Assembly (NCBI GenBank): GCA_015146655.1
Contig: VKHL01000237.1
Location: 1 to 30,154 of the forward strand
Direction of reading: 5' to 3'
Length of the DNA: 30,154 bases
Source: Ochromonas danica
Taxonomy: Eukaryota > Sar > Chrysophyceae > Chromulinales > Chromulinaceae
Both the position numbers and the translations under genes were made by a program. Under the pieces are notes generated by a model that saw only the letters and a list, made by a program, of their open reading frames with translations, was not told the DNA's origin and searched no databases. Shown piece by piece: positions 112-27,787 of this stretch (positions within the stretch are counted from its first letter, which is position 1; each line of letters opens with the position of its first letter).

Positions 112-615
112 ATGTTCAAGATAAATTTACATCTGTTAAATATTATTATTTATATTTTGGCTTCGTTTTTACTTTCAGTATTAATAGTCAATTTTCGCTT
201 GGTTGTGGAAATTTCACTAATACTAAAGTTTGCCTTCGTCTATCAATCTGGCGCATCTTATATTCTAGGTAGAATTGCGGAGAGCGCTCAACAAGCTAGT
301 CTTAATGATCAAATCATTAGTCAGCTTTTAAAGGCTCTTACTAACAATTTGAACCACATCTCTGCAATTAGTGTAGACGTCGCAGTTGTCGTTACGTTTT
401 CAACTGTTTTATATTTTTTTATGCCAAAAAAGAATGTTACTTTAAACTTCTTTTTTTACTTAGTTGTTTTTAATTATTTTTTAACAACTTATTATAGTTT
501 TCTGTGGAATTACATCCTAATGAATTCGATTGTTATTTTTAGTTATGTTCATACCTTATGTTTTTATTGCTATTCTATAAAAGAAATTATCTATTTTATT
601 TTTTATTTTTATTAA
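112..615 (+). CDS. Unknown membrane protein, orf167
   Basis: I do not recognise a known family. The 167-residue product starts with a hydrophobic segment (about residues 8-26), then has a more polar stretch (about 50-88, Gln/Asn/Ser rich), a second hydrophobic segment (about 88-104) and further hydrophobic, Phe/Tyr-rich segments to the end. The first half has the same plan as the N-terminal halves of orf247 (next gene) and orf246 (27047-27787): membrane segment, polar loop of about 40-60 residues, membrane segment. I infer it is a shortened or diverged member of that family. Its end overlaps the start of orf247 by 58 bases, unusual in this genome, so either the end of this gene or the start of the next may be misjudged. 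Location would be the inner mitochondrial membrane by analogy only. Confidence 0.55.
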   Translation: MFKINLHLLNIIIYILASFLLSVLIVNFRLVVEISLILKFAFVYQSGASYILGRIAESAQQASLNDQIISQLLKALTNNLNHISAISVDVAVVVTFSTVLYFFMPKKNVTLNFFFYLVVFNYFLTTYYSFLWNYILMNSIVIFSYVHTLCFYCYSIKEIIYFIFYFY

Positions 616-1301
616 TCCCATTTACAATTTCCTATAATTTTATTATTTTTAATAATTTTCAAGCCGAATTAAATCAGGACGTATATAGTGTTATGACTCA
701 AATTGGTAATGGAATAGAGTCAAATAATCTTGCTTTAATAAATAGCAGGAATATTAATATGTCTTGTGTTAATTCTAGTTTGAATTATTTTGCGCTTTTT
801 CTTAGCTTATCGCAAATTATTGTCTGTTTTAGTCTAGTTTTGTTCAAGAGTTTATTGCCGGTATCAAATTTAGCTCCTTTGAGTCCAAATATGGACTTTC
901 ATCCATATTTGGACTTTAACGATTTTCACCACCATTTAGATATTGCTTGGAATTTTTACTCTGATAATCTGAAAGATTTTAGTAGAGTTATTATGGTACG
1001 AATAAAAGATTTGTTAGTTTATAAAAGTATCCTCGTTCGTGAGTGGACTCAAATTAACCAACTCCAAGAAGGAGCTAGCGATTCTGTTTATTTAGATAAT
1101 TTACAACAATTAATTACTTTTCTACATAAGTCGCATCAAACTACGTGTCAGCTTAAAATCTACGGCAATAAGCTCTATACTTTTAAAAGTGTTGGTCTAC
1201 AAACATATTCCGGTAGAGATCTCCATGCCTTTTTAAAGTCTATTGAATCTTTTGATGATATTACAAAAATGCTAGATATGTTAAATATTTTAAAGAAATG
1301 A
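558..1301 (+). CDS. Unknown two-membrane-segment protein, orf247
   Basis: No known family recognised. The 247-residue protein has a hydrophobic segment near residues 10-30, a polar loop of about 45 residues (Asn/Gln/Ser rich), a second hydrophobic segment near 76-98, then a mostly soluble C-terminal domain of about 150 residues. The C-terminal motif DLHAFLKSIESFDDIT lines up with DLDLFFKTLEHSQDIT of orf246 (27047-27787), and the order of segments and total length are the same (247 and 246 residues), so I take them as paralogs. The stop is TGA. It overlaps orf167 by 58 bases and is followed 3 bases later by orf110, suggesting co-transcription. The start is uncertain because of the overlap; an internal start would remove part of the first membrane segment. 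Confidence 0.7.
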   Translation: MFLLLFYKRNYLFYFLFLLIPFTISYNFIIFNNFQAELNQDVYSVMTQIGNGIESNNLALINSRNINMSCVNSSLNYFALFLSLSQIIVCFSLVLFKSLLPVSNLAPLSPNMDFHPYLDFNDFHHHLDIAWNFYSDNLKDFSRVIMVRIKDLLVYKSILVREWTQINQLQEGASDSVYLDNLQQLITFLHKSHQTTCQLKIYGNKLYTFKSVGLQTYSGRDLHAFLKSIESFDDITKMLDMLNILKK

Positions 1302-1304
1302 TTT

Positions 1305-1637
1305 ATGTTAAGAAATGTTAAAAATTTGAGTAGTGATATAAAATTTCGATGCTTGATAATCTTTCTATTGTTTGTTTTAATTATTGTTGCTTCATTTTGT
1401 TATTTTGATTTATTAGAAAAGAAAGAATTAGCTGCTGGTGTGTTAGAACATGCTAAAGCAGAATTTCTATCTTTAAATGAAGAACAAAATGAGCTTACAA
1501 ACAAATTGAATGATCAGATCGAGGAGATCAACCAAAAAAAAGAGGCTTTAATTAAAAAACAACAATTAGAGAGATCATACACTCAAAAAATTGTTGAGGA
1601 TTTTTTTGGTTTCAAAACTGGGAGTAAAAAACCCTAG
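1305..1637 (+). CDS. Small membrane-anchored coiled-coil protein, orf110
   Basis: Unassigned. The 110-residue product has one hydrophobic segment (about residues 15-34) followed by a charged helix (about 38-95) rich in Glu, Lys, Gln and Leu with heptad-like spacing, so it is probably a single-pass anchor with a coiled coil, and it ends in a basic tail. This is a plan shared by many membrane-stalk or tether proteins, including ATP synthase b subunits, but it is shorter than mitochondrial Atp4/Ymf39 and shows no signature that would allow that call. It starts 3 bases after orf247 and is the last gene of the plus-strand block before the convergent spacer. Confidence 0.6.
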   Translation: MLRNVKNLSSDIKFRCLIIFLLFVLIIVASFCYFDLLEKKELAAGVLEHAKAEFLSLNEEQNELTNKLNDQIEEINQKKEALIKKQQLERSYTQKIVEDFFGFKTGSKKP

Positions 1638-1690
1638 TATTTTTTATTTGTTTAAATGTTTGTCAATAGTTAGGCAAATTTATTATATAG

Positions 1691-1721
1691 CTTTAAACAC
1701 ACTGAAAGGTGAGATTTAAAG
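1691..1721. terminator. Hairpin downstream of orf110, possible transcript end
   Basis: Arms CTTTAAA and TTTAAAG pair across an inner CAC/GTG helix. It lies about 55 bases after the orf110 stop, at the start of the convergent spacer. A role in 3' end formation or RNA processing is an inference from position only. Confidence 0.35.
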
Positions 1722-1837
1722 TTAAAATGATCTGTGATAAAATATTAATATTAAAAATTAATGTAAATATTTTTTTTAGAGTTCCTAAAATAAAAATAGT
1801 AATACTATTATTACTTTACATGAACTTTCAAAAAAAA

Positions 1838-1892
1838 GCCAGGTAACTATTTTGGAGTAAATATTAAGGTTCGATTCCTTCTACTTTTGGCC
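1838..1892 (+). pseudogene. tRNA-like remnant (anticodon arm plus T arm)
   Basis: A T-arm with loop TTCGATT (1865-1881) is preceded by a stem-loop at about 1844-1860 whose loop would place TTT at the anticodon position, as in tRNA-Lys. No matching 5' acceptor strand or D arm is found, and an intact tRNA-Lys(ttt) exists at 23100-23174. I read it as a decayed tRNA copy; chance resemblance is possible. Confidence 0.3.
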
Positions 1893-2191
1893 ATTCCTTA
1901 TGTTTTATATGAAAAAATAAGCATACTTTATTTCTTTGCTTTGGTTATGCTATTATAATATAATACATCTATATGATATATATCTATACATTAAATGTTC
2001 ACACAACAAAAATAACAATATTAGTAGTCGAAGTTATATTCTTATAAGTTTACACTATCATATAAATAATGTATACGTACGCAATAAGTCATATTACTGG
2101 TCACCAGCTGCTTTTGAGCAGTACATTTATTTTGATTTAAAAACTAGAAACAGTCTCCACTAGCTTATTTAAAAGTATTAATAATAAATAT

Positions 2192-3688
<1,497 letters not shown>

Positions 3689-3748
3689 TTACCAAAACCT
3701 TCGCCCAAAAAAAATCAAAGCCTTAATTATTGAATAGGTTACATTCAT

Positions 3749-3818
3749 AGACAAAATTGGATTCAAACCAACAACCTTTGCTTTGTAAGAGCAACGCTCT
3801 ATCGTTGAGCTATTTGTC
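3749..3818 (-). tRNA. trnV: tRNA-Val(tac)
   Basis: Minus-strand cloverleaf: acceptor GACAAAT pairs with TTTTGTC except at the innermost pair, anticodon arm TTGCT-CTTACAA-AGCAA gives anticodon TAC, T loop TTTGAAT. It lies between cox1 and tRNA-Leu(taa). Confidence 0.88.
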
Positions 3819-4022
3819 TTTTTATGTTGTAATTAGTGGACATATTGATAATATTGATAAATATAAAAAATTTATAGAAAAAGAGTCATTTTTAAACCTA
3901 CCAATTACAACAATGGAGTCAAATAATCTGTAATATGCGAATAGAAAGTCGTCACATTATAAATCAGATTACTCTTAACCAAATTTTTTAATTTTGTTAA
4001 AAAAACAAGTAATGGCGCGCCT

Positions 4023-4105
4023 TACTCAGTAATGGAATTGAACCAATACCTTCAATGAAGAACAAATTTTAAGTCTGTCGCGTCTACCTATTCCGCCAAC
4101 TGAGT
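4023..4105 (-). tRNA. trnL: tRNA-Leu(taa)
   Basis: Type II cloverleaf with long variable arm. Acceptor ACTCAGT/ACTGAGT is fully paired; anticodon loop CTTAAAA gives TAA, for the UUA codons that dominate leucine use here. It ends just upstream of cox1's leader region and starts 10 bases after the nad5 stop. Confidence 0.9.
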
Positions 4106-4114
4106 TCTCATAGC

Positions 4115-6121
4115 TTACTTATAAAAAATTTTTAATTCTTTTTCAAAGTAGTAGCTAGATAAAAATAATAAAATTAATGTTAAAGCTAATATTTGTAAGT
4201 TATAATTTATCATTAGGAAAAAAGCAATAATTGAGAAAAAAAAATAGATCAGGTAATGAATGATAAAACCTGTTGTTAAATTTCGAACTAAATTCGAAAA
4301 AATATTTAAACTGTTTGATATTCCTACCGGCCCAAACTTCTCAATTAATCCTCTATCAATTTGCTGATAAAAAAAATAATAGCTAGTTTTTAACACTTGT
4401 TGCACAAGAATTTCATTATATACTCTATCAAAATACCATTTTTTATTAAAAAAGTTAAAAATTTTAATAATATTGGTATTTTGTTTCACTTTAAAATAAT
4501 CTTCTATTCGAAAAACATAACAATAATATGCTGCTAATACACCAGAAAGTGTTAAAAAGAGTGGTAATGTTTTAATTTCAAAAGGAAGAAATTCAATATC
4601 ACTCATTACATAATTTTTAGAAAAAATAAAAATAGAATTGTTCCAAAAATCACTACCAAAGCCAATAAATAAGTCTTTCGTTAAGAATCCAATTAAAATC
4701 GAACAAATACTTAGAATAAATAATGGAAATCCCATCCTAATAGTTGGTTCATGAGCGTGTAAAGTAGTATTTTTATTTCCGTTAGGATTTGATAAGAAAA
4801 CTAAAAATAGTAGTCTAGTAGAATAATAAGCAGTACAAAATGCCGCTAATAAGCCTAAAACATATGCAAATTTCCCAACTACAGTCCATGTAGAAGCTGC
4901 AACTTCTAAAATTATATCTTTAGAATAAAACCCAGCTAAAAAAGGGAATCCTATTAAAGCTAAAGATCCAATTACAGAAATTGCATAAGTGAAAGGTAAT
5001 AAATTCTTTAAACCACCCATTTTACGCATATCTTGCTCATCTGACATTGCATGTATAACTGACCCTGCCCCTAGGAATAGTAAAGCTTTAAAAAAAGCGT
5101 GATTTGATAGATGAAATATTCCTACTTCATATCCGGATAACCCACAACAAAAAATCATATATCCTAATTGGCTACAAGTAGAATATGCAATTACCCTTTT
5201 CATATCATTTTGAAATAAACCAGTAGTAGCAGCAAAAAAAGCAGTCATAGATCCAACTAAACAAACAACAGATAGAGCTAATTCAGAATTTTCAAAAAGG
5301 AAAGAGCATCTAATTATCAAAAATACACCAGCTGTTACCATGGTCGCAGCATGAATTAATGCAGACACAGGTGTAGGGCCTTCCATAGCATCAGGTAACC
5401 AAGTATGAAGTCCAATTTGAGCCGATTTACCCATTGCTCCAAAAAATAAAAATAAACAAATTACATCAATAACATTAAATTCGAATAAACCAATATTCAG
5501 AGTTTCAATACTGGTTAACATACTTAGATTAAAAATTACATCATAATTTAAACTATTAAAGAAGACATACATAGTAAACATTGCTAATAATAAAAAGAAG
5601 TCTCCTACTCTATTAACTAGCATAGCTTTAATGGCTGCTTTATTGGCTTGAATACGAGTAAACCAAAAATTAATAAGTAGATACGATGAAACTCCTACGC
5701 CCTCCCATCCGATAAACATTTGAAGAAAAGTGTTACCAGTTACTAATATGATCATAAAAAATGTGAACAAAGATAAGTAAGACATAAATCTTGGGAAATG
5801 CGGATCATTTTCCATATATTCTGTAGAATATAAGTGTACCAATGTTGAAATGAAAGTAACAACCACAAGCATTACTCCGGTTAATGTATCAAAACAAAAA
5901 GACCATTGTATATTCATGGTATTTATTTTTATCCAATCATTTAAAGTAAAGATGTAAACGTTACCTGTATGTATATTTTCAAATAGAAATGTAACACATA
6001 TTAAAAAAGTAATACCAGTAAATAATGTTGTAATTATTCCTGCACCTTTTCCAACACGAGATCCAAATAAGCTTCCACTAAAAAACCCAAATAATGGCAA
6101 CAAGATTATTTGAGAAAACAT
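4115..6121 (-). CDS. nad5: NADH dehydrogenase subunit 5
   Basis: Antiporter-like proton-pumping subunit of complex I in the inner membrane. The 668-residue product is of normal length and has the family landmarks: the LYSTEYMENDPHFPRF region, FIGWEGVGVSSYLLINFW, the conserved Glu and Lys environment, HTWLPDAMEGPTPVSALIHA, and the lateral helix and final membrane segment at the C-terminus (after about residue 550). It is placed between tRNA-Ser(tga) upstream (7 bases) and tRNA-Leu(taa) downstream, so its mRNA ends may be set by tRNA excision. Confidence 0.98.
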   Translation of the reverse strand: MFSQIILLPLFGFFSGSLFGSRVGKGAGIITTLFTGITFLICVTFLFENIHTGNVYIFTLNDWIKINTMNIQWSFCFDTLTGVMLVVVTFISTLVHLYSTEYMENDPHFPRFMSYLSLFTFFMIILVTGNTFLQMFIGWEGVGVSSYLLINFWFTRIQANKAAIKAMLVNRVGDFFLLLAMFTMYVFFNSLNYDVIFNLSMLTSIETLNIGLFEFNVIDVICLFLFFGAMGKSAQIGLHTWLPDAMEGPTPVSALIHAATMVTAGVFLIIRCSFLFENSELALSVVCLVGSMTAFFAATTGLFQNDMKRVIAYSTCSQLGYMIFCCGLSGYEVGIFHLSNHAFFKALLFLGAGSVIHAMSDEQDMRKMGGLKNLLPFTYAISVIGSLALIGFPFLAGFYSKDIILEVAASTWTVVGKFAYVLGLLAAFCTAYYSTRLLFLVFLSNPNGNKNTTLHAHEPTIRMGFPLFILSICSILIGFLTKDLFIGFGSDFWNNSIFIFSKNYVMSDIEFLPFEIKTLPLFLTLSGVLAAYYCYVFRIEDYFKVKQNTNIIKIFNFFNKKWYFDRVYNEILVQQVLKTSYYFFYQQIDRGLIEKFGPVGISNSLNIFSNLVRNLTTGFIIHYLIYFFFSIIAFFLMINYNLQILALTLILLFLSSYYFEKELKIFYK

Positions 6122-6127
6122 AAAAAA

Positions 6128-6214
6128 TAGGATGAAGGGGGATTCGAACCCACGGTATATTTATATACATCAGTTTTCAAGACTAACGCCTTAAGCCACT
6201 CAGCAATTCATCCT
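6128..6214 (-). tRNA. trnS: tRNA-Ser(tga)
   Basis: Type II tRNA with long variable arm. Acceptor AGGATGA/TCATCCT is perfect, anticodon loop CTTGAAA gives TGA, T loop TTCGAAT. Confidence 0.95.
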
Positions 6215-6235
6215 AAAAAACTTTTAACATTTAAC

Positions 6236-6763
6236 TTATATAGAAATATAAAAGTCAAAATTTACAAAAACAGTTTTTACTTCAAGATCCTTATGATTTG
6301 CTAAAGAATAATATGCTATATCTTTAAGTTCAATCACTGGAAGTTGAACTGAAAATTTTTTTAAATTGTTATTTATATGACTAATACTCGTTGATAGTTC
6401 ATCTTCTAATCTTTTTAAAAGATTATGTTCATAAACTAAGGATTTAACTAAGTACCAAATTTCCTCTTTATCATTTAATGTTATATTGCAAAAATAATTA
6501 AAGAAACTATCATCAGTGTACCCTGGAGTAAACAATATATTTTTAGGATCAAAAACTTTTAGTAATGACATAACTTTAACATGAAATGCTTCATCAATGC
6601 GCGATTCGTGTGTTAACTCTTTAAGTGAATCTACACAGTTACTTGAACTTAAATAAACCACAACTTTTTTGATAATTGGTTGTTTATGAGCTCGAAAGTC
6701 ACTAAAAGTATTAAGCAAAAAATAATCTTTTGCATAACTTAAATTATTATAATCTTTTAACAT
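6236..6763 (-). CDS. Unassigned orf175, possibly a very divergent ribosomal protein L5
   Basis: The 175-residue product has no membrane segment and no clear family signature. Length and layout are reminiscent of ribosomal protein L5: a PIIKKVVVYLSSSN strand near residue 29 resembles the L5 strand PKIEKIVVNMG, and the C-terminus alternates short strands after an LKDIAYYSL segment. L5 is otherwise missing from this window although its usual neighbours rpl14 and rps14 are present. The resemblance is weak and could be chance. It starts after a 308-base non-coding stretch and ends 21 bases before tRNA-Ser(tga), so it is in a normal gene position and probably real. Confidence 0.55.
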   Translation of the reverse strand: MLKDYNNLSYAKDYFLLNTFSDFRAHKQPIIKKVVVYLSSSNCVDSLKELTHESRIDEAFHVKVMSLLKVFDPKNILFTPGYTDDSFFNYFCNITLNDKEEIWYLVKSLVYEHNLLKRLEDELSTSISHINNNLKKFSVQLPVIELKDIAYYSLANHKDLEVKTVFVNFDFYISI

Positions 6764-7071
6764 ATGGATATATAAGAAAATGATAACTTGTTATGTTTAT
6801 CATCTTCTAGTAAATTAATACTATATTACTACACAACAGGCGAAAAAGCAACAGCGCCAACTACGCAATAGAAAAACACAGTAAAAACTGTCTGAACCTA
6901 TAACACAAACAAATGGAATAAACCCCTATAGAACACTAGTTTAAGATCGAATATGTAATTATTGACCACATACTCATAAAATACAACCCTAAAATTTTTA
7001 CTTTGAATTATACCTTATAGTATAGAAAACTGCAACAGCTACTGTTTTCGTTGTAAGCCCTACATTTTAAT
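6764..7071. other. Non-coding spacer between nad11 and orf175
   Basis: About 308 bases. I find no tRNA, no convincing ORF and no strong hairpin. It lies downstream of nad11 and upstream of orf175 on the minus strand, so it could hold a leader or a secondary promoter, but nothing in it proves this. Confidence 0.5.
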
Positions 7072-10675: not shown

Positions 10676-11875
10676 TTATCTATCTACTTCACCAAACACG
10701 ATATCTTGAGTACCAATTATAGTAACCACATCAGCAATCATATGATTATAAGTCATATCATCTAATGCTTGTAAATGACCAAAACCAGGAGCTTTTATTT
10801 TACACCTATAAGGTTTTTCTGTGTGATTTGAAATTACATAAACGCCAAATTCTCCTTTTGGAGCTTCAGTAGCAACATAAGCTTCCCCATAAGGTAATAT
10901 AAAACCCTCACTAAAATATTTAAAGTGATGAATGGTTGCTTCCATACTTGTTTTAAGATCAAAACGACTTGGATTTGTTATCTTAGAATTTACATTTTTA
11001 ATGATACCATCTTTTAATAACCCCATAGCATCTATTAAGATTTTTACGGATTGTCTCATTTCAGCAACTCTTACTAAATAACGATCATAACAATCACCAT
11101 TATTAGCTACCGGAATATCAAAATCTAGTTTATTATAAACTTCATATGATAAATTCTTTCTTAAATCCCATTTAATTCCAGAACCACGTAACATTACTCC
11201 ACTAAATCCCCAATTTAAGGCATTTTCAGAAGTAACAATACCAATATTTATTAAGCGCTCTTTCCAAATACGATTTGAAGTTAACATTTCCTCCATTTCA
11301 TCAATACGATCGTTAAATTGAGTAGCAAATAAATAAACATCGTCTAAAAATCCTAACGGAATATCATTTGCAACTCCCCCTGGTCGAATATAAGCACTAT
11401 GCATTCGAGCACCAGAAACCCTTTCGTAAAATTCCATTAACTTCTCACGTTCTTCAAAAGCCCATAAAAATGGAGTCATAGCACCCACATCCATTGCATG
11501 ACAGCCTACAGCTAATAAATGATTCAATATTCTAGTAATCTCTAAAAAAATTACTCTAATTACTTGAGCACGATAAGGAACCTCAATTTTACCAATTTTT
11601 TCAAGAGTCATACTATAAGTATGTTCTTGAGCCATCATAGACACATAATCTAATCGATCTAAATATGGTAGAGCTTGTAGATAATTTTTGTTTTCCATAA
11701 GCTTTTCAGTTCCTCTATGAAGAAGACCTATGTGTGGATCAGCGTTTTTAATTGTTTCTCCATCTAATTCTAATATTAATCTTAAAACTCCGTGAGCAGC
11801 TGGATGCTGTGGACCGAAATTTATTGTAAAATTATTAAGATTAATGGACAATTCATTTTTTTTCGCTATAGACAT
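10676..11875 (-). CDS. nad7: NADH dehydrogenase subunit 7 (49-kDa, NuoD-like)
   Basis: Quinone-site subunit of the complex I peripheral arm. The 399-residue product has the family landmarks [15 protein letters not shown] near the N-terminus, [14 protein letters not shown], the [11 protein letters not shown] quinone-site region, and the C-terminal DIVFGEVDR ending. Normal length and no intron. Its start codon overlaps the end of nad9 by 10 bases, so nad9 and nad7 are probably translated from one message, as the adjacent order nad9-nad7 also suggests (nuoC-nuoD in bacteria). Confidence 0.99.
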
Positions 11876-12780
11876 TGTCTTTTCCTAAAACACTCCTCAT
11901 TTCGCCTAAGGAGTTCCTCAAGCTCTTCGGGAGTTAAATCATCTATATCTATGACTACGTCTTCTTTATTAATCCATTCATCAATATTACGTACATCTTC
12001 ATCTTCCTCATCAGTATCACCCTCTTCATCATAATATTCTTCGTAAATTGTTTCTTCGTCTTCGTCAGAATATTCATCTTCAAAATCTTCTAATAAATCA
12101 TCTAATTCATCCAAATCTCTTGGATCCTTTCGGTCATAAACATCTTCCACATCCTCTAAATCATCGAAATCTTCTACATCATGTAAATCATCTTCTTGTG
12201 GATCTTTTGAAGTCAACGATAGTAATACATCCGTGTCCGATTGTAGCCAAGGATTTTCATAATTGTATTTTCGCATCTCCTGAGTTAAAGTTAAAGGATA
12301 AATCTCTACTTTTTTAGTTGAGTCATCATATTGTACTTCAACAAAACCAGATAGAGGGAAATCTTTTCTTAAAGGAAATCCTTGAAAACCATAATCAGTT
12401 AAAATTCTTCTTAAATCAGGATGATTTTCAAAAAAGATACCAAACATATCCCAAACTTCTCTTTCCCACCAATTTGAATTTTTAAAAACACTAACCAATG
12501 ATGGAACAGGAGTTACTTCATTCACAAAAACCTTTATAGTCATTCTTTGATTATTTTTAATACTTAACAACTCATAAACGACCGCAAATCGATACTGCAT
12601 CTCGATTAAATCTACTCCAGTAACATTAGATAGTAATGTATATAATGAATTTATATGAAGCTTCAAATTATTAACTACACCCAATAATTCATCTGAAGTT
12701 ACTACTACAGTTTGATGATCATTTAAAGTATTTCTCTCGAAATACACAACTGGTAAACTATTATATAAAAAATTAGTCAT
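11866..12780 (-). CDS. nad9: NADH dehydrogenase subunit 9 (30-kDa, NuoC-like) with acidic tail
   Basis: Peripheral-arm subunit of complex I. Residues about 1-180 are a complete Nad9: the [13 protein letters not shown] signature at 103-115, [24 protein letters not shown] at 120-142 (here split for length: [10 protein letters not shown] and [10 protein letters not shown]), and the usual end near ENPW at 175-178. The normal family length is about 190 residues. Here the frame continues for about 124 more residues (bases 11869-12240) that are overwhelmingly Asp and Glu with scattered Tyr, Leu and Val, ending in a short amphipathic stretch [12 protein letters not shown] and a Cys-containing basic end. 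The stop overlaps the nad7 start by 10 bases. The tail is uninterrupted, so it is probably translated; its role is unknown. Confidence 0.97.
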
Positions 12781-18408: not shown

Positions 18409-18452
18409 CTAAATTGGTGTAAAATTGTAAAATAAATAAAATACACTAAAAA

Positions 18453-18524: not shown

Positions 18525-18540
18525 AGTCAAATATAATCAT

Positions 18541-19086: not shown

Positions 19087-19103
19087 AATATGTTTATTCA
19101 AAA

Positions 19104-19176: not shown

Positions 19177-19186
19177 TAAACAATAT

Positions 19187-19259: not shown

Positions 19260-19309
19260 TTATATACTGTTTAAAAAACATTAAACATGCTCTTTTTCTT
19301 AAAAGTATT

Positions 19310-19382
19310 TGGAGATAACCAGAGTCGAACTGATTACTTCATGCTTGCAAAGCATACACTCTACCAAATGAGTTATACCCCC
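19310..19382 (-). tRNA. trnA: tRNA-Ala(tgc)
   Basis: Acceptor GGGGGTA/TATCTCC with two G-T pairs, anticodon loop TTTGCAA gives TGC, T loop TTCGACT. Confidence 0.93.
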
Positions 19383-19385
19383 TTT

Positions 19386-19456
19386 TACGAACAATGAGAC
19401 TTGAACTCATATAGTCTGCTTGGAAGGCAGAAAATCTACCATTAATTTATATTCGC
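19386..19456 (-). tRNA. trnG: tRNA-Gly(tcc)
   Basis: Acceptor GCGAATA/TGTTCGT with wobble pairs, anticodon arm TCTGC-CTTCCAA-GCAGA gives TCC, T loop TTCAAGT. Three bases from tRNA-Ala. Confidence 0.93.
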
Positions 19457-19480
19457 AAAAAAAAAACAAATAAAAAAAAA

Positions 19481-21154
19481 TTACCTTCTAAGAAAATTTA
19501 CATTCGCAAATCTTGTTGTAGCCATATTCATTAAAAATGTATCTGAACTGGATAAAAATTTAAGATCCTTAACTACAGCTATATTCTGAATATAATCATC
19601 TAGTTCTAAGAAAGGATAAAACATCCTACGAGTTTTAATATCTTCCATAGCACTTTCAAGATCAAAGTCATTGTTTTTGTATAAATCACAAACTAAATCT
19701 CCTTTAAATAAACGAGTTTCATTCTTAGGAGAATGACCATTTATTGAAAATCTCCCATAATTAATTTGTTGATTCACTTCAGCAACTGATCGAGAATAGA
19801 ACATCGTAAATAAACTATATCGTAAACTATAGTAGTTACTAAAAGCTTTTTCCAGCAAAAAGTCCCAGCGATTGTCTACATCTGTTTTTTTTCGATGATG
19901 AGGTTTATTATATACCATACGGAAAGCTCTATCGAGCTTTACTTGTTTTTTATGCCAAATTCTCTTCCTTATAATCTTTTTCGCCCGCAATTTAATTGGA
20001 AAAGAATTTAAACGTTTATATTTTACAGCTCTTTTAAATACTTTACGAAAACTAAAAGGAAATCGATTTCGACGTTTGAAAATATTTCTAGCAGCTTTTC
20101 TCGATATATCCTTTATTTTTTTATTAAATCTTCTATAAAGTTTTTTAGGCTCAATAAAAGCACGATAAAAAAGTTTACGAGTTTTAAAGTCTGGAAGAGG
20201 ACGTTTCATCTTTTTAAAAAAGTAATCATATATTATATCCCTTTCACTTGATTTAAACTTTTTAGTAAAATATATTTTACGATCAAAAGATCGCAATTTT
20301 GCAAATTTTCTATATCGTCTAAAATAACAATACTGAATATAACGTATAGTTGAAAGAGACTTAGCTAATCTAAATCTTTTTTTTGAAGTACGAGGATAAA
20401 AAGTATATTTTTTTGTTGAAAACTTAAAATTTTTACGATTAGCAACTACAATAAAAGTACGTTTAGGCTTATGCTTAAATACAGATACTTTTTTTTTTTT
20501 AGAATTCTTAAAAGTATTAAGAGTTGAATTGTACTTTTTCAATAACCTCTTTAATTTAAATCTATACCCACGAGATAAATAAGGAGATAAAGAAGTATGA
20601 ATACGCCATCGAAAAATAGGATATTCTTTAATAAAGACACTTGCTTTGTATTTAATACCATATTGAGAATTCGGAACTCCTTTATAAAAAAAATATATTG
20701 GCTTTTTTTGACGATAACGCTGCCCCCAATAATCGTGCTCTTGAAAACCAAAAATCATCCTAACTTGTGGCATACGGTAAAACTTACCATAGTATTTACC
20801 AAAGACCTTATAGTATTCGGTAAACTTCATTTTATAAAGTTCTCCTTTACCCTTTAAATATTTTTGTAAAGGAAACGAGCTATATGGTTTTAAATAGTTT
20901 CGGGTACTCCTATATCTTTTACGTCTAAATACTTTTAAAAGTTTTCTGTTCTTTTTAATTTGCCAAGGACGAAAAAAGTTTGGTCTAAGTTTTAACGAAT
21001 AACTGCGCCTACGTCTACTTCCACTGACTTTTTTCCAATGTTCGTTTGGAGCCTTTGGCGCATTCCAACGAGCACTAGTTTTTCGATCAATGTTTAAGTT
21101 TTGAGTATGACCTAAGCCATAATTATTTTTGATTGCAGCATGTCTATTCGCCAT
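19481..21154 (-). CDS. rps4: Ribosomal protein S4, enlarged
   Basis: Small-subunit assembly protein. The 557-residue product is more than twice bacterial S4 length. The S4 RNA-binding domain is near residues 453-487: RSVAEVNQQINYGRFSINGH matches the family pattern of Ser-Arg, Ala, Gln-Leu, Gly and Val-Asn-Gly, followed by KGDLV. The preceding FLLEKAFSNYYSLRYSLF corresponds to the LE-RLD helix, and FYPFLELDDY near the end to the family's terminal segment. The first about 420 residues are a Lys/Arg/Tyr/Phe-rich region without a domain I can name. It starts 2 bases after the orf334 stop. Confidence 0.82.
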   Translation of the reverse strand: MANRHAAIKNNYGLGHTQNLNIDRKTSARWNAPKAPNEHWKKVSGSRRRRSYSLKLRPNFFRPWQIKKNRKLLKVFRRKRYRSTRNYLKPYSSFPLQKYLKGKGELYKMKFTEYYKVFGKYYGKFYRMPQVRMIFGFQEHDYWGQRYRQKKPIYFFYKGVPNSQYGIKYKASVFIKEYPIFRWRIHTSLSPYLSRGYRFKLKRLLKKYNSTLNTFKNSKKKKVSVFKHKPKRTFIVVANRKNFKFSTKKYTFYPRTSKKRFRLAKSLSTIRYIQYCYFRRYRKFAKLRSFDRKIYFTKKFKSSERDIIYDYFFKKMKRPLPDFKTRKLFYRAFIEPKKLYRRFNKKIKDISRKAARNIFKRRNRFPFSFRKVFKRAVKYKRLNSFPIKLRAKKIIRKRIWHKKQVKLDRAFRMVYNKPHHRKKTDVDNRWDFLLEKAFSNYYSLRYSLFTMFYSRSVAEVNQQINYGRFSINGHSPKNETRLFKGDLVCDLYKNNDFDLESAMEDIKTRRMFYPFLELDDYIQNIAVVKDLKFLSSSDTFLMNMATTRFANVNFLRR

Positions 21155-21156
21155 AA

Positions 21157-22161
21157 TTACCCCCTTCTTTCAGAGCCTGAATCATTATTTGGCACTGAAG
21201 TGTTTTTTTTTGTTTTAACACCTTTTGAGCCTTTAGATTGTTTTGGTGCTTCTGATATTTTAGGTACTTTTGGTTCCTTAGATTTTTTAACAGTCTTTGA
21301 CTTTTTCGACCTTTTTACTATATCAGTATCTTCAGGCTGCTCACGAATTTTGGGTACCTTTAGTCCTTTTGAAGGAGTCTTCTTCGAAATCTCAGAATCC
21401 TTTAACGGCTTAGAATCTTTCTTAGGATCCTTCGGCACCTTTGGACCCTTAGGATCCTTTTTTGGGAGCTTTTCTTTACGATCCTTACGATCACTTGAAC
21501 GCTCTTTTGGCTTTTTATCACTACGATCCTTAGGCTGGACACGCTCCTGAGGATTTTTTGAGCCATCCTCTTTTTTTTTCTTCTTAACCGGAGATTTCGG
21601 ATTTGAAGTTTGGTCTTTAACAGAACTAATAACTTGCTCAGGATTGTCAGACACAACCCGATTTTTACTAAGTAGTTTGTCTTCCACAGCAATAGGAAGA
21701 TCTGCAGTCAGCGGATTAACTAAATCCAAGGAAAAATTTTTATTTTCAGTTAACATAATTTTGTTTACACTCTTGAAAGATTTTAAACGCATCTTTCCTG
21801 CGTGTTTAATCACAAGATCTAAATGCTTTAATCTACGATTTATATTTTTTGCTATAGAAGCTTTCACATTTCGCTTCTGATTCTTTAACAAAGAATGAAA
21901 AAATTCTTGTACGGGTTTGTAATAACGACTCCTAACCCATTCATCAACTTTAAATGGAGTACTGCCTTGTGTTTCTTGTCTATATAGAATAGGTTTTATC
22001 CTTATCAATTTAGACCTATAAAACTTTGAAATACGATATTTGCGCGCTACAGCTTTTTTTAAACGCTTAAATTTTGGCCGTTTCAAGTTAAGAATTCTAG
22101 CATTAATGTGCTGAACACTTCTAGTTTTTAAATAGGTTTTATATTTAATAAAATTTTTCAT
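21157..22161 (-). CDS. Unassigned basic orf334 with charged low-complexity tail
   Basis: The 334-residue product has a very basic N-terminal half (residues 1-140, Lys/Arg-rich helices), a short ordinary stretch, and from about residue 186 a 150-residue tail of Lys, Pro, Ser, Asp and Glu in short repeats such as KDPKGPKVPKDPKKD. It ends 2 bases before the rps4 start, so both are probably on one message. The segment RILNLKRPKFKRLKK near residue 22 and the following basic helices look like the N-terminal part of some protist mitochondrial S4 proteins, from memory only. It may therefore be an unrecognised ribosomal protein, or an N-terminal piece of a split S4. Confidence 0.6.
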   Translation of the reverse strand: MKNFIKYKTYLKTRSVQHINARILNLKRPKFKRLKKAVARKYRISKFYRSKLIRIKPILYRQETQGSTPFKVDEWVRSRYYKPVQEFFHSLLKNQKRNVKASIAKNINRRLKHLDLVIKHAGKMRLKSFKSVNKIMLTENKNFSLDLVNPLTADLPIAVEDKLLSKNRVVSDNPEQVISSVKDQTSNPKSPVKKKKKEDGSKNPQERVQPKDRSDKKPKERSSDRKDRKEKLPKKDPKGPKVPKDPKKDSKPLKDSEISKKTPSKGLKVPKIREQPEDTDIVKRSKKSKTVKKSKEPKVPKISEAPKQSKGSKGVKTKKNTSVPNNDSGSERRG

Positions 22162-22193
22162 GCAACTTATTTATAACTACTTCTAAAAGAAAT

Positions 22194-22266
22194 TGCTTTG
22201 AGTTGGAATCGAACCAACCAAGAAATGATTTTCAGTCATTCGTGAAAACCGCTTCACATCCAAAGC
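22194..22266 (-). tRNA. trnF: tRNA-Phe(gaa)
   Basis: Acceptor GCTTTGG pairs with CTCAAAGC region with one mismatch, anticodon loop CTGAAAA gives GAA, T arm TTGG-TTCGATT-CCAA. Confidence 0.95.
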
Positions 22267-22327
22267 TAAAAAAATAATTGACGGTAGGTGTTCTTATATT
22301 TTTACTTTTAAGAAAATTAAAAGAAAA

Positions 22328-22814
<487 letters not shown>

Positions 22815-22885
22815 CAGAAGAAGAAGGACTTGAACCTTCATTGATGAATTTGGAATTCATTATTCTACCATTAAAATATACTTCT
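22815..22885 (-). tRNA. trnW: tRNA-Trp(cca)
   Basis: Anticodon arm ATGAA-TTCCAAA-TTCAT gives CCA; acceptor AGAAGTA/TTCTTCT has one mismatch; discriminator G. The CCA anticodon reads only UGG, consistent with TGA used as stop. Confidence 0.93.
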
Positions 22886-22910
22886 GATTATTACAACAGT
22901 AAAAAACTAT

Positions 22911-22982
22911 AAGATAACGTGCGAATCGAACGCACATACATCGGATCATGAGTCCAAGATTTTACCATTAAACTAGCTATCC
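22911..22982 (-). tRNA. tRNA with anticodon CAT (Met or Ile), copy 2
   Basis: Acceptor GGATAGC/GTTATCT with wobble pairs, anticodon arm TTGGA-CTCATGA-TCCGA gives CAT, T arm GTGCG-TTCGATT-CGCAC. Identity among initiator Met, elongator Met and Ile is not settled. Confidence 0.88.
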
Positions 22983-22984
22983 AA

Positions 22985-23059
22985 AACATTCTTTAGGAAT
23001 CGAACCTAAAACCTGCGGCTTAGAAGGCCAACGCTCTATCCAAGTTGAGCTAAGAATGC
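22985..23059 (-). tRNA. trnR: tRNA-Arg(tct)
   Basis: Acceptor GCATTCT/AGAATGT, anticodon loop CTTCTAA gives TCT, T arm TTAGG-TTCGATT-CCTAA. Two bases from the neighbouring CAT tRNA. Confidence 0.93.
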
Positions 23060-23099
23060 TTTTAACAATTCTAGAAATATCCTAAGAAAAAATGAATGC

Positions 23100-23174
23100 T
23101 GGTTGAGACAGGGATCGAACCTGTGACATTTTCATTAAAAGTGAAACGCTCTTATCCAACTGAGCTACTCAACC
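23100..23174 (-). tRNA. trnK: tRNA-Lys(ttt)
   Basis: Acceptor GGTTGAG with CTCAACC, anticodon loop CTTTTAA gives TTT, T arm CAGG-TTCGATC-CCTG. It is the first gene of the minus-strand block after the divergent strand switch. Confidence 0.95.
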
Positions 23175-23447
23175 TGGGTTTGAACGGCTACACTAGTATA
23201 CAAACTTTCTTGTGAAAACACAGTCAAACCACTACGCCACAAACAGACATAAACGTGCGTCATTGGACCTATAAAAATCAAACATAGTTGCGCCGAAAAC
23301 CAGGTTCAGTAAAAAAGTAAATTCGTAATTATCTATAACTGAAATTAAACTACTCTATATCTAGATTACAGAAAAAGTAACAGTAATACCTCAGAAAATC
23401 TTGTTACACGTAGGATTATTTACTAGTTATTTACTGATACTTTCAAC

Positions 23448-23460
23448 AAGCCGTAGGCTT
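23448..23460. repeat. Small hairpin AAGCC-GTA-GGCTT
   Basis: Five perfect base pairs with a 3-base loop, inside the strand-switch region, 28 bases before the GC palindrome. An ATTTACTGATA word lies on each side of it. Confidence 0.5.
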
Positions 23461-23488
23461 ATCTTCTGTTCATTTACTGATAACTATA

Positions 23489-23504
23489 CCCCCTTTAAAG
23501 GGGG
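23489..23504. promoter_or_regulatory. Perfect 16-bp palindrome CCCCCTTTAAAGGGGG
   Basis: A perfect inverted repeat with G/C runs in AT-rich surroundings, followed at 23505-23533 by another stem with AACAC/GTGTT arms. Because of its place at the divergence point it could be a dimer-binding site, cruciform or origin/promoter element. The function is inferred from position. Confidence 0.45.
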
Positions 23505-23578
23505 AACACCTAGTATCGATCCGAGCCTGTGTTTTTTAATTTAAACTTTTGAAAAATATTAAAAAAAAAACTTTCTAT

Positions 23579-23740
23579 TTAAATTCTTTTTGAATTTCCT
23601 AGCTTTTTAATCTTAGCGGGTATGTAATCAGAACACTTTGGAGAGAACTCGTTAAAATATTGCACAACAATTAGTTTTGTCTTCTATTTATAGTGTTTAG
23701 GCTAAAAACCTTTTATGAAATTACGACTCTCTCTTTTCTA
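23579..23740 (-). pseudogene. Degenerate inverted copy of the right-edge open frame (30048 onward)
   Basis: Read on the minus strand this segment matches the plus strand at 30048-30152. The ends are strongly alike (AGTCGTAATTT...AAAGG and GAGTTCTCTCCAAAG), with identical spacing of 73 bases between the two blocks and a diverged middle. In the matching frame it reads SRNF, KGF and EFSPK as in the other copy, but is interrupted by stop codons and lacks a start, then remains open for about 20 codons after EFSPK. I infer a decayed duplicate of an unassigned gene; the alternative is a shared non-coding element. Confidence 0.5.
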
Positions 23741-24449
23741 TTTTTTTTGTATTTTATTTAACTAAAGTTGACTTTATGTTTGTTTGTCCGTGCTTTTTTG
23801 ATATCTTTAGCATGCTTTTTTTGTGTTTAATAAAAATGTTTTAAAATATAAAAAATATAGTAATGTAAATCAACATCTAAAAAAATCTGTATAACATTTT
23901 TTGGATTTTACTTGTCGTTTAATTATCAGAGGTTTAACTTTTTTTATTTTTTTAAGAATTAGCAGATATTATAAATCATTTTTTGTGTTGAAAGTTCATT
24001 AAGCTGTACAGTATTAGTGTTGGTTGATATATACATCGTATTGTACTTACATTTAAACGAATTATTGGTACAAAATTCAATCTTATTTGAATGGGGCAAT
24101 TGATGTTGTGTTTCTTTTTTTTTGAACTTTTGAGATTTCAGTAGAGGTAGCTCAAAAAACAGTAAGTGACAGATAATAGTTTATAAATTTTTATAAAAGT
24201 ATGATCTGTATAAATTTTTGATGAAGACAAAACTTTTTTGAATTTTAAACATAAAGTATGGAAAGTTTTAAAGGTATTTGTTTGAAAAAATTTAACAACA
24301 TTAAATAATTTTTGAACAAATATCTTTAACTGTATTTAAAAGTTATAGGTTCAATGGACGAATATTTCTACTGCTACCGTTGTCTTGTCAACGATCAATT
24401 CTTATATTAAAGCTAGTACTTGTAGAGTAGTGTTTTTTAATAACAGTTC

Positions 24450-24845
24450 ATGTCTAATTTTCAAAAATTAAATGCATTCTTAAGTACTGATTTTGGCTTT
24501 AAAAAATATTCAAAAATTTATTTTAAAAACAAGGCCGGTTATAATATCAGGCACCCTTTAGTTGTTATCAAGCACAAAGATGTTGAGCATGTTGTTAATT
24601 CATTAACCTCAATCTCTGAAGCTAGAGCAATTGTTTCTGGTGAAACAGGGTCAAAAACTTTAAGATCTGAAGTTAATGACTTTATTAACTATAAAGTATT
24701 AAACACTTCATATCAAGGAGATCGTCATGAAAAAAATCTTCCTGTAAGAGGTCAACGAACTAAGACTAATGGTAGAACAAGTAAAAGTCGATCTCTTTCT
24801 TTATTTTTTTTAGAACGTAATACTGCTGAGGCTACTGAAAAGTAA
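24450..24845 (+). CDS. rps13: Ribosomal protein S13
   Basis: Small-subunit head protein contacting the P-site tRNA and the large subunit. The 131-residue product carries the diagnostic C-terminal motif QGDRHEKNLPVRGQRTKTNGRT (residues about 91-112; core LPVRGQRTKTNGRT), and a middle SISEAR segment; the N-terminal helix-two-turn-helix part is divergent. Length is near normal (about 120). It is the first gene of the plus-strand block after the strand switch and is followed by rps11, the same order as in the bacterial alpha operon. Confidence 0.95.
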   Translation: MSNFQKLNAFLSTDFGFKKYSKIYFKNKAGYNIRHPLVVIKHKDVEHVVNSLTSISEARAIVSGETGSKTLRSEVNDFINYKVLNTSYQGDRHEKNLPVRGQRTKTNGRTSKSRSLSLFFLERNTAEATEK

Positions 24846-24954
24846 AGCTCTATTGTATCTTTTGAAGAAATTAAAGAAATGTTCTTTTTTGTATATACGG
24901 TAATTCTGGTTGAATATACAACTCTAATAAAAAAGGATTTAATAATTTTGTAAT

Positions 24955-25905
24955 ATGAAAAATAAAAAGTGGAAATTAAAATTTTATAAAAAAAAAGAAA
25001 AGCCTACTATAGTCTTTAAAAAAGCTATAAGTCCTTATAAAGCAACTTATGTAAAAAGTTTTAATCTTTTTAATAGAAAAATAATTATTAATAAGTGGCT
25101 TACCTTATGCGCATTAAAGATTAGAGATAGTCTTACTAAGCATAATAAGGCTTTAGCTGTAAATATTAACATTAGGAAAATTAAAGCTCTAAGCAGAAAT
25201 ATTGGTCTAACTTTAAATTTATTATCAAGAAGAAGACTAAATTTAGTTAGGTTTTTTGGGAAAGGTGTTAAGTTTAAAAATAAATCGTTAATACATATAG
25301 TTAATCATAGAAGAAGATTAAATCGTCGAAATGAAAAAAAATTATTTTTAATACAACAAAGTCAATATGTACTTGCGCGGTCTTCGTATCTTGTATTACA
25401 TATTAAAGTTGTTTTTAATAATGTTTTTTGTCATTTAACTGATAATAACGGGAGGACTATTTTTCCAGTAAAAACAGGTCCTTCTTATGGTATTAAGATG
25501 TCAAAAATAAATATTAAATTAAATTTAGAACGCTTTTTATCTGCTTATACTCACGATTTAATAAAGAATATAGCGGGTAAAAGTAAAGGTCCTATTAAAA
25601 ATTTTCTTCTTAATATAACTTCTCCTAAAAAATATCGAAGACGAATTCTATTTTCTTGTAAAAATTTTGTTGTCAAAAAGTTTGTTAAAGCTCAATTAGA
25701 GTCACGATCATTAAAGTCAAAAGTTCTTACTACTAATTTGAGAAACTTTTCATCTGCTAAAAATTTTTTATTAAATGTTGGTAGACAGAGAAGAACTCCA
25801 ATGGCTTATACTAATTTAGTAGATAGTAAACCTTTTAATGGGTGTAGACAAATTGTTTTATTAAGAAAGAAACGAATGAAGTTGTTTTTTTACAAAGTTA
25901 GGTAA
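24955..25905 (+). CDS. rps11: Ribosomal protein S11 with long N-terminal extension
   Basis: Small-subunit platform protein. The S11 core lies at about residues 148-306 of 316: HIKVVFNNVFCHLTDNNGR corresponds to the start of the family domain (NNTIVTITD in bacteria), YGIKMSKI to the following segment, and DSKPFNGCRQIVLLRKKRM to the conserved NGCRPPKKRR end. About 147 Lys/Arg/Asn-rich residues precede the core, against nearly none in bacteria, and there is also extra sequence inside the core (about 205-280). It follows rps13 by 109 bases, keeping the ancestral rps13-rps11 order. Confidence 0.9.
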   Translation: MKNKKWKLKFYKKKEKPTIVFKKAISPYKATYVKSFNLFNRKIIINKWLTLCALKIRDSLTKHNKALAVNINIRKIKALSRNIGLTLNLLSRRRLNLVRFFGKGVKFKNKSLIHIVNHRRRLNRRNEKKLFLIQQSQYVLARSSYLVLHIKVVFNNVFCHLTDNNGRTIFPVKTGPSYGIKMSKINIKLNLERFLSAYTHDLIKNIAGKSKGPIKNFLLNITSPKKYRRRILFSCKNFVVKKFVKAQLESRSLKSKVLTTNLRNFSSAKNFLLNVGRQRRTPMAYTNLVDSKPFNGCRQIVLLRKKRMKLFFYKVR

Positions 25906-25931
25906 CTTTTATTAAACAACAAATGTTTTAA

Positions 25932-26018
25932 GGAATTGTGGCTGAGTGGCTTAAAGCGCTAATTTGCTAAATTAGAGTGTATTTTTTTGCACCGTGGGTT
26001 CGAATCCCACCTTTTCCC
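25932..26018 (+). tRNA. trnS: tRNA-Ser(gct)
   Basis: Type II tRNA with long variable arm; anticodon loop TTGCTAA gives GCT; T arm GTGGG-TTCGAAT-CCCAC; acceptor GGAATTG/CTTTTCC has two mismatches. It ends 6 bases before the nad1 start. Confidence 0.9.
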
Positions 26019-26024
26019 GTTATT

Positions 26025-27029
26025 ATGTCTCAATTTACAATAAGTTCATTTTTAAATGTTTTGTTTACAATAATCAAGATACTTGTTATTCTTGTGCCGC
26101 TTTTATTGAGTATAGCATACTTTACTTTGGCAGAAAGAAAAGTACTTGGAACCATTCAAAGACGAATGGGGCCTAATGTTATTGGGGTTTACGGGCTATT
26201 ACAACCATTATCTGATGGATTTAAGCTTTTTATGAAAGAGGCTTTAATTCCTAGTAATGCTAATAAAATTATATTTATTATATCTCCTATTATTACTTTT
26301 ACCGTAAGTTTAATAGGTTGGTGTGTTATCCCTTTTGATAAGTATTCTTCTTTAGTAGAATTAAATGTTGCGTCTATTTATTTAGTTGCTGTTTCTTCTT
26401 TAGGTTTTTATGGAATTGCTATGTCAGGATGGTCGAGTAACTCTAAATATCCTTTTTTAGGGTCACTTCGTTCTACTGCTCAAATGGTATCTTATGAAGT
26501 TTCTATCGGTTTTATTATTGTTACTATTGTAACTTGTGCTGGTAGTTTTGACTTACAGGAAATTGTTAATTCTCAGATTAACGTTTGGTATTTTATCCCA
26601 TTTTTTCCTTTGTTTTTGATGTTTTTTACTTCTGCTTTAGCAGAAACTAATAGACATCCTTTTGATTTACCAGAAGCTGAAGCCGAGTTAGTTTCGGGGT
26701 ATAATGTTGAGTATTCTGCTATGACTTTTGCTCTTTTCTCTTTAGGTGAATATTCTAATATGTTAATGATGAGTGCTATTAATACTATTTTCTTTTTTGG
26801 AGGATGGTTACCGCCTTTAGCTATTTTAGATTTTTTACCTGGTTCTTTTTGGTTTGCTCTTAAAATTTCTTTTTTTGTTATTTTATTTGCTTGGATGCGA
26901 GCTATTTTACCCAGATATAGGTATGATCAACTTATGGATTTAGGGTGGAAAATTTTTTTACCACTATCTATTGCTTATTTAGTTTTTACATACAATGTTT
27001 TATGTTCATTTGACTACTTAGGTAGATAA
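26025..27029 (+). CDS. nad1: NADH dehydrogenase subunit 1
   Basis: Membrane subunit of complex I that forms part of the quinone chamber. With the start at 26025 ([10 protein letters not shown]) it has 334 residues. Landmarks are the [19 protein letters not shown] loop near residues 40-58, [20 protein letters not shown], and the [20 protein letters not shown] quinone-site loop near residues 200-220. The open frame extends to 25977, but that would overlap tRNA-Ser(gct), so the internal ATG is chosen. It has no intron and is followed 17 bases later by orf246. Confidence 0.98.
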
Positions 27030-27046
27030 AATATATTTTATAGTGA

Positions 27047-27787
27047 ATGTTTTTTATTAAAGCTATGACATCTTTTCGGTGGATTTGGGGTATTTTATTC
27101 TTTGTTGTTTTTGTTTTATATAACTATTTATGCTTTGTTTCTTTTGTTGAGCAGCTTGAAAATGATTTAAATGTAGCCATGTTATTATCAGAGTCGTTTA
27201 TAAATGCTAATCAGATTGCATTAGAACGGTCTAACAATTTGGTAGTTTCTACTACCAGCGATAACAGTGCTTTTAGTGTTCTATTAACAGTTGGTGGAGT
27301 TGTTCTAGCTATTACTGCTGTTTTTTTATTATTTGGTATTGTTGTGGATTTTTGTTATCCTCAACCTATATATCTGCCGTATGATTCTTGGTTGTCTTTT
27401 CACTTAAAGGCAAATAGTGCGTGCAGTATTTATTTAAAATGGTTACCTGTTTACAATTGGAAACTACAATCTTTAAAGTACTATCTGGACTATTATATCC
27501 AAATATGGTCTACGCATGATAACCCTGCGGCTGATCAGTTGCCTGAGGTGATTATTACTTTGGGTCAAAAATACCAACAAATGCTTGATTTTCAACATTG
27601 CGGATATAAAGTACTACAGTATGTGTGTGCTAGTGATCCAGGGGCGGTTAACCGCCTTACGCCAAAGGATCTGGATTTGTTTTTTAAAACACTAGAGCAT
27701 TCCCAAGACATTACTGATTTTATTTTGGTATCAAAGAAGGTGGCTAACGCGGATGCATTCGGAGTTATTAATAAACTTTTTACATAA
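27047..27787 (+). CDS. Unknown two-membrane-segment protein, orf246
   Basis: No known family recognised. The 246-residue product has a hydrophobic segment at about residues 11-33, an acidic/polar loop of about 50 residues, a second hydrophobic segment at about 77-104, and a soluble C-terminal domain of about 140 residues. Its motif DLDLFFKTLEHSQDIT near residue 211 matches DLHAFLKSIESFDDIT in orf247 (558-1301), and the lengths differ by one residue. I infer they are paralogs placed far apart in the genome, one next to nad1. It sits 17 bases after nad1 and 13 bases before tRNA-His, so it is embedded among normal genes. Function is unknown; inner membrane is likely. Confidence 0.72.
   Translation: MFFIKAMTSFRWIWGILFFVVFVLYNYLCFVSFVEQLENDLNVAMLLSESFINANQIALERSNNLVVSTTSDNSAFSVLLTVGGVVLAITAVFLLFGIVVDFCYPQPIYLPYDSWLSFHLKANSACSIYLKWLPVYNWKLQSLKYYLDYYIQIWSTHDNPAADQLPEVIITLGQKYQQMLDFQHCGYKVLQYVCASDPGAVNRLTPKDLDLFFKTLEHSQDITDFILVSKKVANADAFGVINKLFT

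Follow-up and report, generated by a model that had tools for sequence, protein, structure and literature searches.

Very probable paralogs encoding predicted two-segment membrane proteins in a mitochondrial DNA segment of Ochromonas danica

Unassigned open reading frames (ORFs) occur in the mitochondrial DNA (mtDNA) of several protist groups, according to the available text of a review (PMC7194472). Those that encode orphan membrane proteins are often doubtful as genes. The 30,154-nucleotide (nt) stretch of Ochromonas danica DNA analyzed here (contig VKHL01000237.1; hereafter the window) holds two such frames, orf247 and orf246, and the question it raises is whether these are real genes of common descent and, if so, what their products might do. 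We found that the two proteins have a common plan and a significant full-length similarity, and that both genes have a weak codon bias. Judged from their alignment, they are very probably paralogs, and similarity of this kind within a single genome is internal evidence of real genes. We tentatively favor, with somewhat less than even confidence, the view that they descend from an old duplication of a single gene for a mitochondrial inner-membrane protein peculiar to this lineage, which most likely serves the respiratory complexes as an accessory or assembly protein of low abundance.

A preliminary description of this DNA, made from the sequence alone, had proposed that orf247 and orf246 form a family, pointing to nearly equal lengths, a shared order of parts, a matching C-terminal motif, and a separation of about 26.5 kb. 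These observations were borne out. Both frames are open, over 247 and 246 amino acids (aa), respectively, and start 26.5 kb apart; by hydropathy, each protein comprises a transmembrane (TM) segment, a 47-aa loop, a second TM segment, and a tail of 151 or 146 aa (Table 1). BLASTP aligned residues 12-239 of orf247 with residues 17-226 of orf246 at 38.1 bits (expectation value, E, 4e-8) and 22% identity, and a MAFFT alignment contained 56 identical residues among 220 aligned pairs; in both alignments, the C-terminal motifs DLHAFLKSIESFDDIT and DLDLFFKTLEHSQDIT lie opposite one another. When all pairs of 23 window proteins were compared by BLASTP, this pair ranked fourth, below pairs among nad2, nad4, and nad5 (42-69 bits) and above a next-best pair at 26.2 bits. 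The profile comparison that the preliminary description had suggested, run with HHalign on the bare sequences, gave an E of 6e-4 but a probability of only 28%. The loops alone gave no BLAST match to one another.

That two AT-rich membrane ORFs of similar composition should resemble each other to this extent by chance is, in our view, very improbable. The low HHalign probability speaks for chance, as does the identity fraction of the alignment (27%), which is unexceptional: of 500 block shuffles that were aligned, 262 attained it; because the two proteins are so alike in composition, 25-27% identity says little by itself. What is unusual about the alignment is its length, its few gaps, and its many conservative exchanges. 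Three shuffling schemes (full, 20-residue blocks, and 10-residue blocks), with 2000 shuffles apiece, never reached the Smith-Waterman score of 125, nor did any of 152 decoy comparisons, which used segments of 13 further proteins of the window and scored 59 at best. Each half was also significant separately: the N-terminal part scored 81 (0/2000 shuffles; z, 3.7), and the C-terminal part scored 63 (0/2000 in two schemes; z, 6.4 and 5.7). In BLASTP, shuffled controls attained at most 30.8 bits (300 local shuffles) and 25.4 bits (300 full shuffles), compared with 38.1 for the real pair. Shuffling of codons gave Smith-Waterman maxima of 101 in 500 (blocks of 10) and 64 in 500 (whole sequences); an extreme-value estimate by hand, based on the means and standard deviations of these shuffles, runs from ca. 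1e-4 (block, conservative) to 3e-9 (whole). The block-shuffle value of 101 again counts on the side of chance, but block shuffles retain part of any true homology and are therefore a strict control.

No third copy was found in the window among 511 six-frame segments of at least 25 aa (next best E, 0.1). Two further ORFs were tried as a third member and rejected: orf167 gave z values of 1.8 and -0.2 against the pair, and orf110 gave 2.3 and 2.4 (35 and 29 of 1000 shuffles), which we did not count as significant.

Comparison of the window with itself revealed no nucleotide match between orf247 and orf246 at E <= 0.01; therefore, if the two are paralogs, their split would be old. The probability that the frames stay open by composition is 2e-9 for orf247 and 2e-8 for orf246, and in both genes the reading frame was the best of four frames scored. 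The preliminary description had taken two diverged yet intact copies as a sign of selection. The copies are indeed intact and diverged, and very probably homologous; selection itself is supported only indirectly, because the frames are open against the odds and protein similarity is present where nucleotide similarity is not, and a codon-position test failed its control (see below).

Both genes also depart from their neighbors in codon usage, a feature that is absent from the preliminary description and is new here. We used a synonymous codon score trained on 22 core genes, each left out in turn, with z values taken against core-like resampling. orf247 (0.155; z, -4.8) and orf246 (0.118; z, -5.2) fall below each of the core genes, which range from 0.25 to 0.40. 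Similar departures were found for orf167 (z, -4.9) and orf334 (z, -6.4, the strongest among the ORFs tested), whereas the codon use of orf110 (z, -1.3) and orf175 (z, -0.6) is core-like. GC content at third codon positions (GC3) is 0.24 and 0.28 in the pair, compared with 0.14-0.25 in the core genes and an intergenic GC of 0.254 (3654 nt). Weak codon bias suggests low expression or relaxed constraint; for a real gene, the simplest reading is that synonymous sites are under weak selection, as expected where expression is low, with a recent or mobile origin as the alternative. It is because of this weak bias that we prefer a low-abundance accessory or assembly role to that of an abundant subunit.

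Both N termini carry two Lys or Arg and no Asp or Glu. Because the N termini are positive and the loops acidic, the positive-inside rule suggests, from few charges, that both termini lie in the matrix and the loop lies in the intermembrane space. The first TM segment of orf247 hinges on a start codon located inside orf167 (58-nt overlap). For orf246, the best of five AlphaFold2 (AF2) models had a mean predicted local distance difference test score (pLDDT) of 57.9, and the other four had 37-43; ten-residue blocks over positions 111-190 scored 62-80. In this partly usable model, the matrix domain is predicted to be all-helical, with helices at 115-156 (long), 165-193, 206-219, and 222-234. Foldseek returned 412 PDB and 515 viral (BFVD) matches to it at E <= 10 but none at E <= 0.001. 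The orf247 model (mean pLDDT, 38.4) was unusable.

Sequence searches likewise returned no credible relative. In Pfam and NCBIfam, the best matches to orf246 (E, 0.29 and 0.019) fell far short of the curated cutoffs, and orf247 had no match; in PHROGs, the best E was 0.2 (orf247); and the loops and soluble domains alone gave no Pfam match at E <= 1. The same libraries picked up the weak rps13 and rps14, and also rps7. The preliminary description had allowed that either protein might prove to be atp4 or a ribosomal protein, and neither Pfam nor NCBIfam returned such a match. The PDB includes Tetrahymena complexes, and its sequences gave no credible match to the pair profile, orf246, or orf247. 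Two designed TIM barrels hit by the pair profile (E, ca. 1e-5) were dismissed as chance matches that depend on four 22-residue repeats with independent E values of at least 81, as was At1g54780 (E, 0.6), which had no support from orf247. The pair profile also matched UNK5 of 7tgh, presumably a Tetrahymena entry, at an E of 0.26, and the single sequences gave no such match. IMG/VR yielded no loci with orf246, orf247, the pair alignment, nad1, or nad7 as the query, and tblastn against phages and plasmids gave best E values of 1 and 4 and otherwise nothing. Against three genomes, the pair profile had one match (E, 0.013), to the soluble domain, for which no closed ORFs of at least 300 aa were listed, and against 289 genomes of one bacterial class (that of a Rickettsia) it had one match, at about chance level (E, 0.0065). 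The family is an orphan as far as we searched; since these collections were not built to hold mtDNA, that status is unrefuted rather than shown.

How do orf247 and orf246 compare with described systems? By analogy, their layout resembles that of lineage-specific inner-membrane proteins which some protists keep in their mtDNA, and such proteins are already known. In the available text of two studies, Tetrahymena Ymf67, Ymf68, and Ymf75 are placed in complex IV, Ymf66 is proposed to be ATP synthase subunit a, and cox3 is shown to be split into two halves, Ymf67 and Ymf68 (PMC10060162, PMC2903591). The last case serves as a warning that orphans may, by analogy, be hidden known genes. As far as these texts go, the ciliate proteins resemble ours in being membrane proteins encoded in the mtDNA of one lineage and hard or impossible to assign by sequence, but they are not presented as a paralogous pair (PMC10060162, PMC2903591). 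Furthermore, Ymf66 has about eight TM segments rather than two, and orf247 and orf246 lack a credible match to PDB chains, among which are those of the Tetrahymena complexes. In Leucomyxa plasmidifera, a paralogous orphan family with a TM helix is encoded on the mitochondrial plasmid pLPM and in a cob-intron insert, and its authors, in the text available, speculate that the products form inner-membrane hetero-oligomers (PMC11528492). The preliminary description knew of no mitochondrial family with the plan seen here. The plan is real, and our paper searches, which covered open-access text, showed no described family with it, but paralogous orphan membrane families and two-TM orphan ORFs are already on record in organelle DNA, as the same partial source indicates (PMC11528492). 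Like orf247 and orf246, the Leucomyxa proteins are paralogous orphan TM proteins encoded in mitochondrial DNA. However, their conserved N-terminal domain is described there as having a single predicted TM helix, with His and Cys residues that are (nearly) invariant, whereas our pair has two TM segments and one His and no Cys among its 56 shared residues; and they reside on a plasmid and in a presumed insert, whereas orf247 and orf246 lie in the chromosome segment seen.

It is rather improbable, but deserves consideration, that one or both proteins represent a known mitochondrial gene diverged past recognition (e.g., atp4, sdh3/sdh4, a cox fragment, or a ribosomal protein). Like the plan predicted here, ATP synthase subunit b (atp4) spans the membrane with a pair of helices, keeps both termini on the matrix side, and has a matrix domain; after its last TM segment comes a long, strongly charged stalk helix. 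Unlike atp4, orf247 and orf246 have a long 47-aa loop between the helices and a matrix domain with few charged residues (fraction, 0.21 and 0.18) and many aromatic ones (0.17 and 0.19, with His included), whereas the tail of orf110, for comparison, is 37% charged. Neither protein matched any ATP synthase b profile at E <= 1 (Pfam and NCBIfam). In cox2, the soluble domain is in the intermembrane space and bears the CuA ligands; the predicted topology of our pair is the opposite, with the soluble domain placed on the matrix side by few charges, and we found neither a Pfam COX2 match nor, by eye, a CuA motif in either protein. Moreover, the library scans that detected the weak rps13 and rps14 gave no credible match, and a paralogous pair fits no single candidate. 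On the other side, atp4, cox2, cox3, cob, atp6, and sdh all went unrecognized in the window, although in a partial window missing genes prove little, and the Ymf67/Ymf68 and Ymf66 cases show how such genes can hide (PMC10060162, PMC2903591).

Several observations count against the reading that we favor. No homolog was found in the libraries searched, and no fold match among PDB and viral models at E <= 0.001. Charges nearly balance in the C-terminal tails (16/16 and 12/14), which leaves the topology prediction to the N termini and loops. The codon-position identities of the pair (0.39, 0.54, and 0.40; expected, 0.26, 0.31, and 0.35) might be taken to indicate selection on the proteins, but shuffled sequences, once aligned, show no different picture (0.41, 0.53, and 0.41), so the test has no bearing on protein constraint, and we do not count it. 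Agreement in hydrophobic pattern comes from the same alignment, shares this flaw, and was likewise dropped. A short, presumably spurious ORF at 1936-2163 has a codon-use z of -3.8, and the pair lies above the composition expectation by z values of only 2.4 and 2.0. Weak codon bias could also reflect relaxed constraint, youth, a mobile origin, or even a non-gene.

If the genes are real, their products might instead be lineage-specific components of ATP synthase or a respiratory complex, present in stoichiometric amounts and as abundant as core subunits, which we regard as credible but unlikely. The ciliate Ymf precedent, in the text available (PMC10060162, PMC2903591), points this way, as does the finding, from a similarly partial source, that hydrophobicity best predicts retention in mtDNA, whose core genes specify subunits of the respiratory chain and of ATP synthase (PMC10809612). 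orf246, moreover, lies 17 nt behind nad1. What argues against it is the codon use of the pair (z, ca. -5), below all 22 core genes, whereas orf110 and orf175 are core-like. We likewise give little probability to the idea that the two diverged copies are remnants of a mitochondrial plasmid or another mobile element. The atypical codon use in common with orf167 and orf334 would fit it, as would the Leucomyxa plasmid and cob-intron insert in the available account (PMC11528492). However, no polymerase or other plasmid gene was seen among the ORFs scanned, orf246 lies within a tight gene array, and the phage, plasmid, and PHROGs searches gave no credible match (best E, 1, 4, and 0.2); the GC3 of the pair matches the GC content of intergenic DNA in the window, so a foreign composition need not be invoked. 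A more speculative possibility, to which we attach slight probability, is that the pair makes up the mtDNA-encoded core of a hetero-oligomeric apparatus in the inner membrane (e.g., for assembly or regulation), one that came about through gene duplication within the mitochondrial genome of a single protist lineage and is without counterpart in other eukaryotes.

In the reading we favor, selection on the two genes, like the route of insertion, the abundance, the partners, and the role of their products, is inferred. Each protein would be translated on mitoribosomes and inserted cotranslationally as a two-helix membrane hairpin; its 47-residue loop would face the intermembrane space, and both of its ends, including a helical domain of ca. 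150 residues, would lie in the matrix. The hairpin would serve as an anchor beside a respiratory complex, and the matrix domain may dock onto subunits that are peripheral or still nascent; orf247 and orf246 could act as partners or on two different targets. The respiratory role finds support in the ciliate Ymf ORFs, which, in the text available, have been placed in respiratory complexes or ATP synthase (PMC10060162, PMC2903591). Given the internal evidence that they are real genes, orf247 and orf246 make good targets for proteomics; if they do encode organelle-made assembly or regulatory factors, they would be additions to the short list of such factors still in mtDNA.

Table 1. Coordinates of orf247 and orf246 and of their predicted parts (positions in the window)
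Feature	Position	Strand	Details or basis
orf247, very probable paralog 1	558..1301	+	247 aa, stop TGA, open frame (standard code)
orf247 predicted TM1, aa 12-30	591..647	+	Hydropathy peak 2.0
orf247 polar loop, 47 aa, predicted intermembrane space	648..788	+	K+R 1, D+E 3
orf247 predicted TM2, aa 78-96	789..845	+	Hydropathy peak 2.42
orf247 soluble domain, 151 aa, predicted matrix side	846..1298	+	Alignment, hydropathy
orf247 C-terminal motif DLHAFLKSIESFDDIT	1218-1265	+	Alignment to orf246 motif
orf246, very probable paralog 2	27047..27787	+	246 aa, stop TAA, open frame (standard code)
orf246 predicted TM1, aa 16-34	27092..27148	+	Hydropathy peak 2.45
orf246 polar loop, 47 aa, predicted intermembrane space	27149..27289	+	K+R 1, D+E 6
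orf246 predicted TM2, aa 82-100	27290..27346	+	Hydropathy peak 2.78
orf246 soluble domain, 146 aa, predicted matrix side, predicted all-helical	27347..27784	+	AF2 model
orf246 C-terminal motif DLDLFFKTLEHSQDIT	27668-27715	+	Alignment to orf247 motif

The window belongs to a protist mtDNA that is rich in genes. Library scans recognize nad1, nad2, nad3, nad6, nad9, atp9, rps3, rps7, rps12, rps13, rps14, rpl14, rpl16, and, weakly, rps11; nad4, nad5, nad7, nad11, rpl2, rps19, and, with less certainty, rps4 were named by eye. The tRNA genes number 21. Because no rRNA gene reached the Rfam threshold and cob, cox2, cox3, and atp6 were not recognized, the window probably covers only part of the mtDNA. 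The genetic code is standard: TGG accounts for all 68 Trp codons counted in the 22 core genes, and TGA terminates rpl2 and rps19 as well as orf247, the stops of the two ribosomal protein genes each overlapping the start of the next gene. TGA is thus a normal stop, and a fused orf247-orf110 protein made by TGA readthrough, which we considered since the two frames are in register and one codon apart, was rejected.

Around orf247, orf167 (112-615, + strand) is hydrophobic, with five hydropathy peaks, and orf110 (1305-1637, + strand), which starts one codon past the orf247 TGA, has one TM segment followed by a coil-like 76-aa tail. The layout of orf110 is like that of a short b or Atp8-type subunit, and no ATP synthase profile match to it was found in Pfam. 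A 39-nt direct match (85%; E, 0.003; perhaps chance) links 1234-1271, inside the 3' part of orf247, with 24843-24881, at the end of rps13. At the other locus, orf246 is followed by trnH-trnD-nad3.

The cox1 gene is conservative, its best solved relative being 7jro_a (896 bits). As a query it found five IMG/VR contigs (L001-L005, one of 194.5 kb) with a cox1 relative at 48-58% identity; in the DNA examined from these contigs, the other 27 of 28 window proteins were unmatched at E <= 0.01. Among genome contigs, the best 80 of at least 593 cox1 loci were all bacterial by title.

On the - strand, nad9 (11866-12780) has a long acidic C-terminal extension past its 30-kDa domain, the Pfam match stopping at residue 146 of 304. 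orf175 (6236-6763, - strand) is soluble and lacks a convincing family match in Pfam, NCBIfam, or PHROGs, and the Lys-rich orf334 (21157-22161, - strand) has no Pfam match. A basic 557-aa ORF (19481-21154, - strand) has a C-terminal part that looks S4-like (rps4) by eye, for which Pfam gave no confirmation. Finally, self-comparison of the window revealed an imperfect inverted repeat (23706-23756 and 30029-30082; 85%) on either side of the + strand block from rps13 to rps7, and a second short inverted match was noted by eye between the window end and the region near 23.6 kb.

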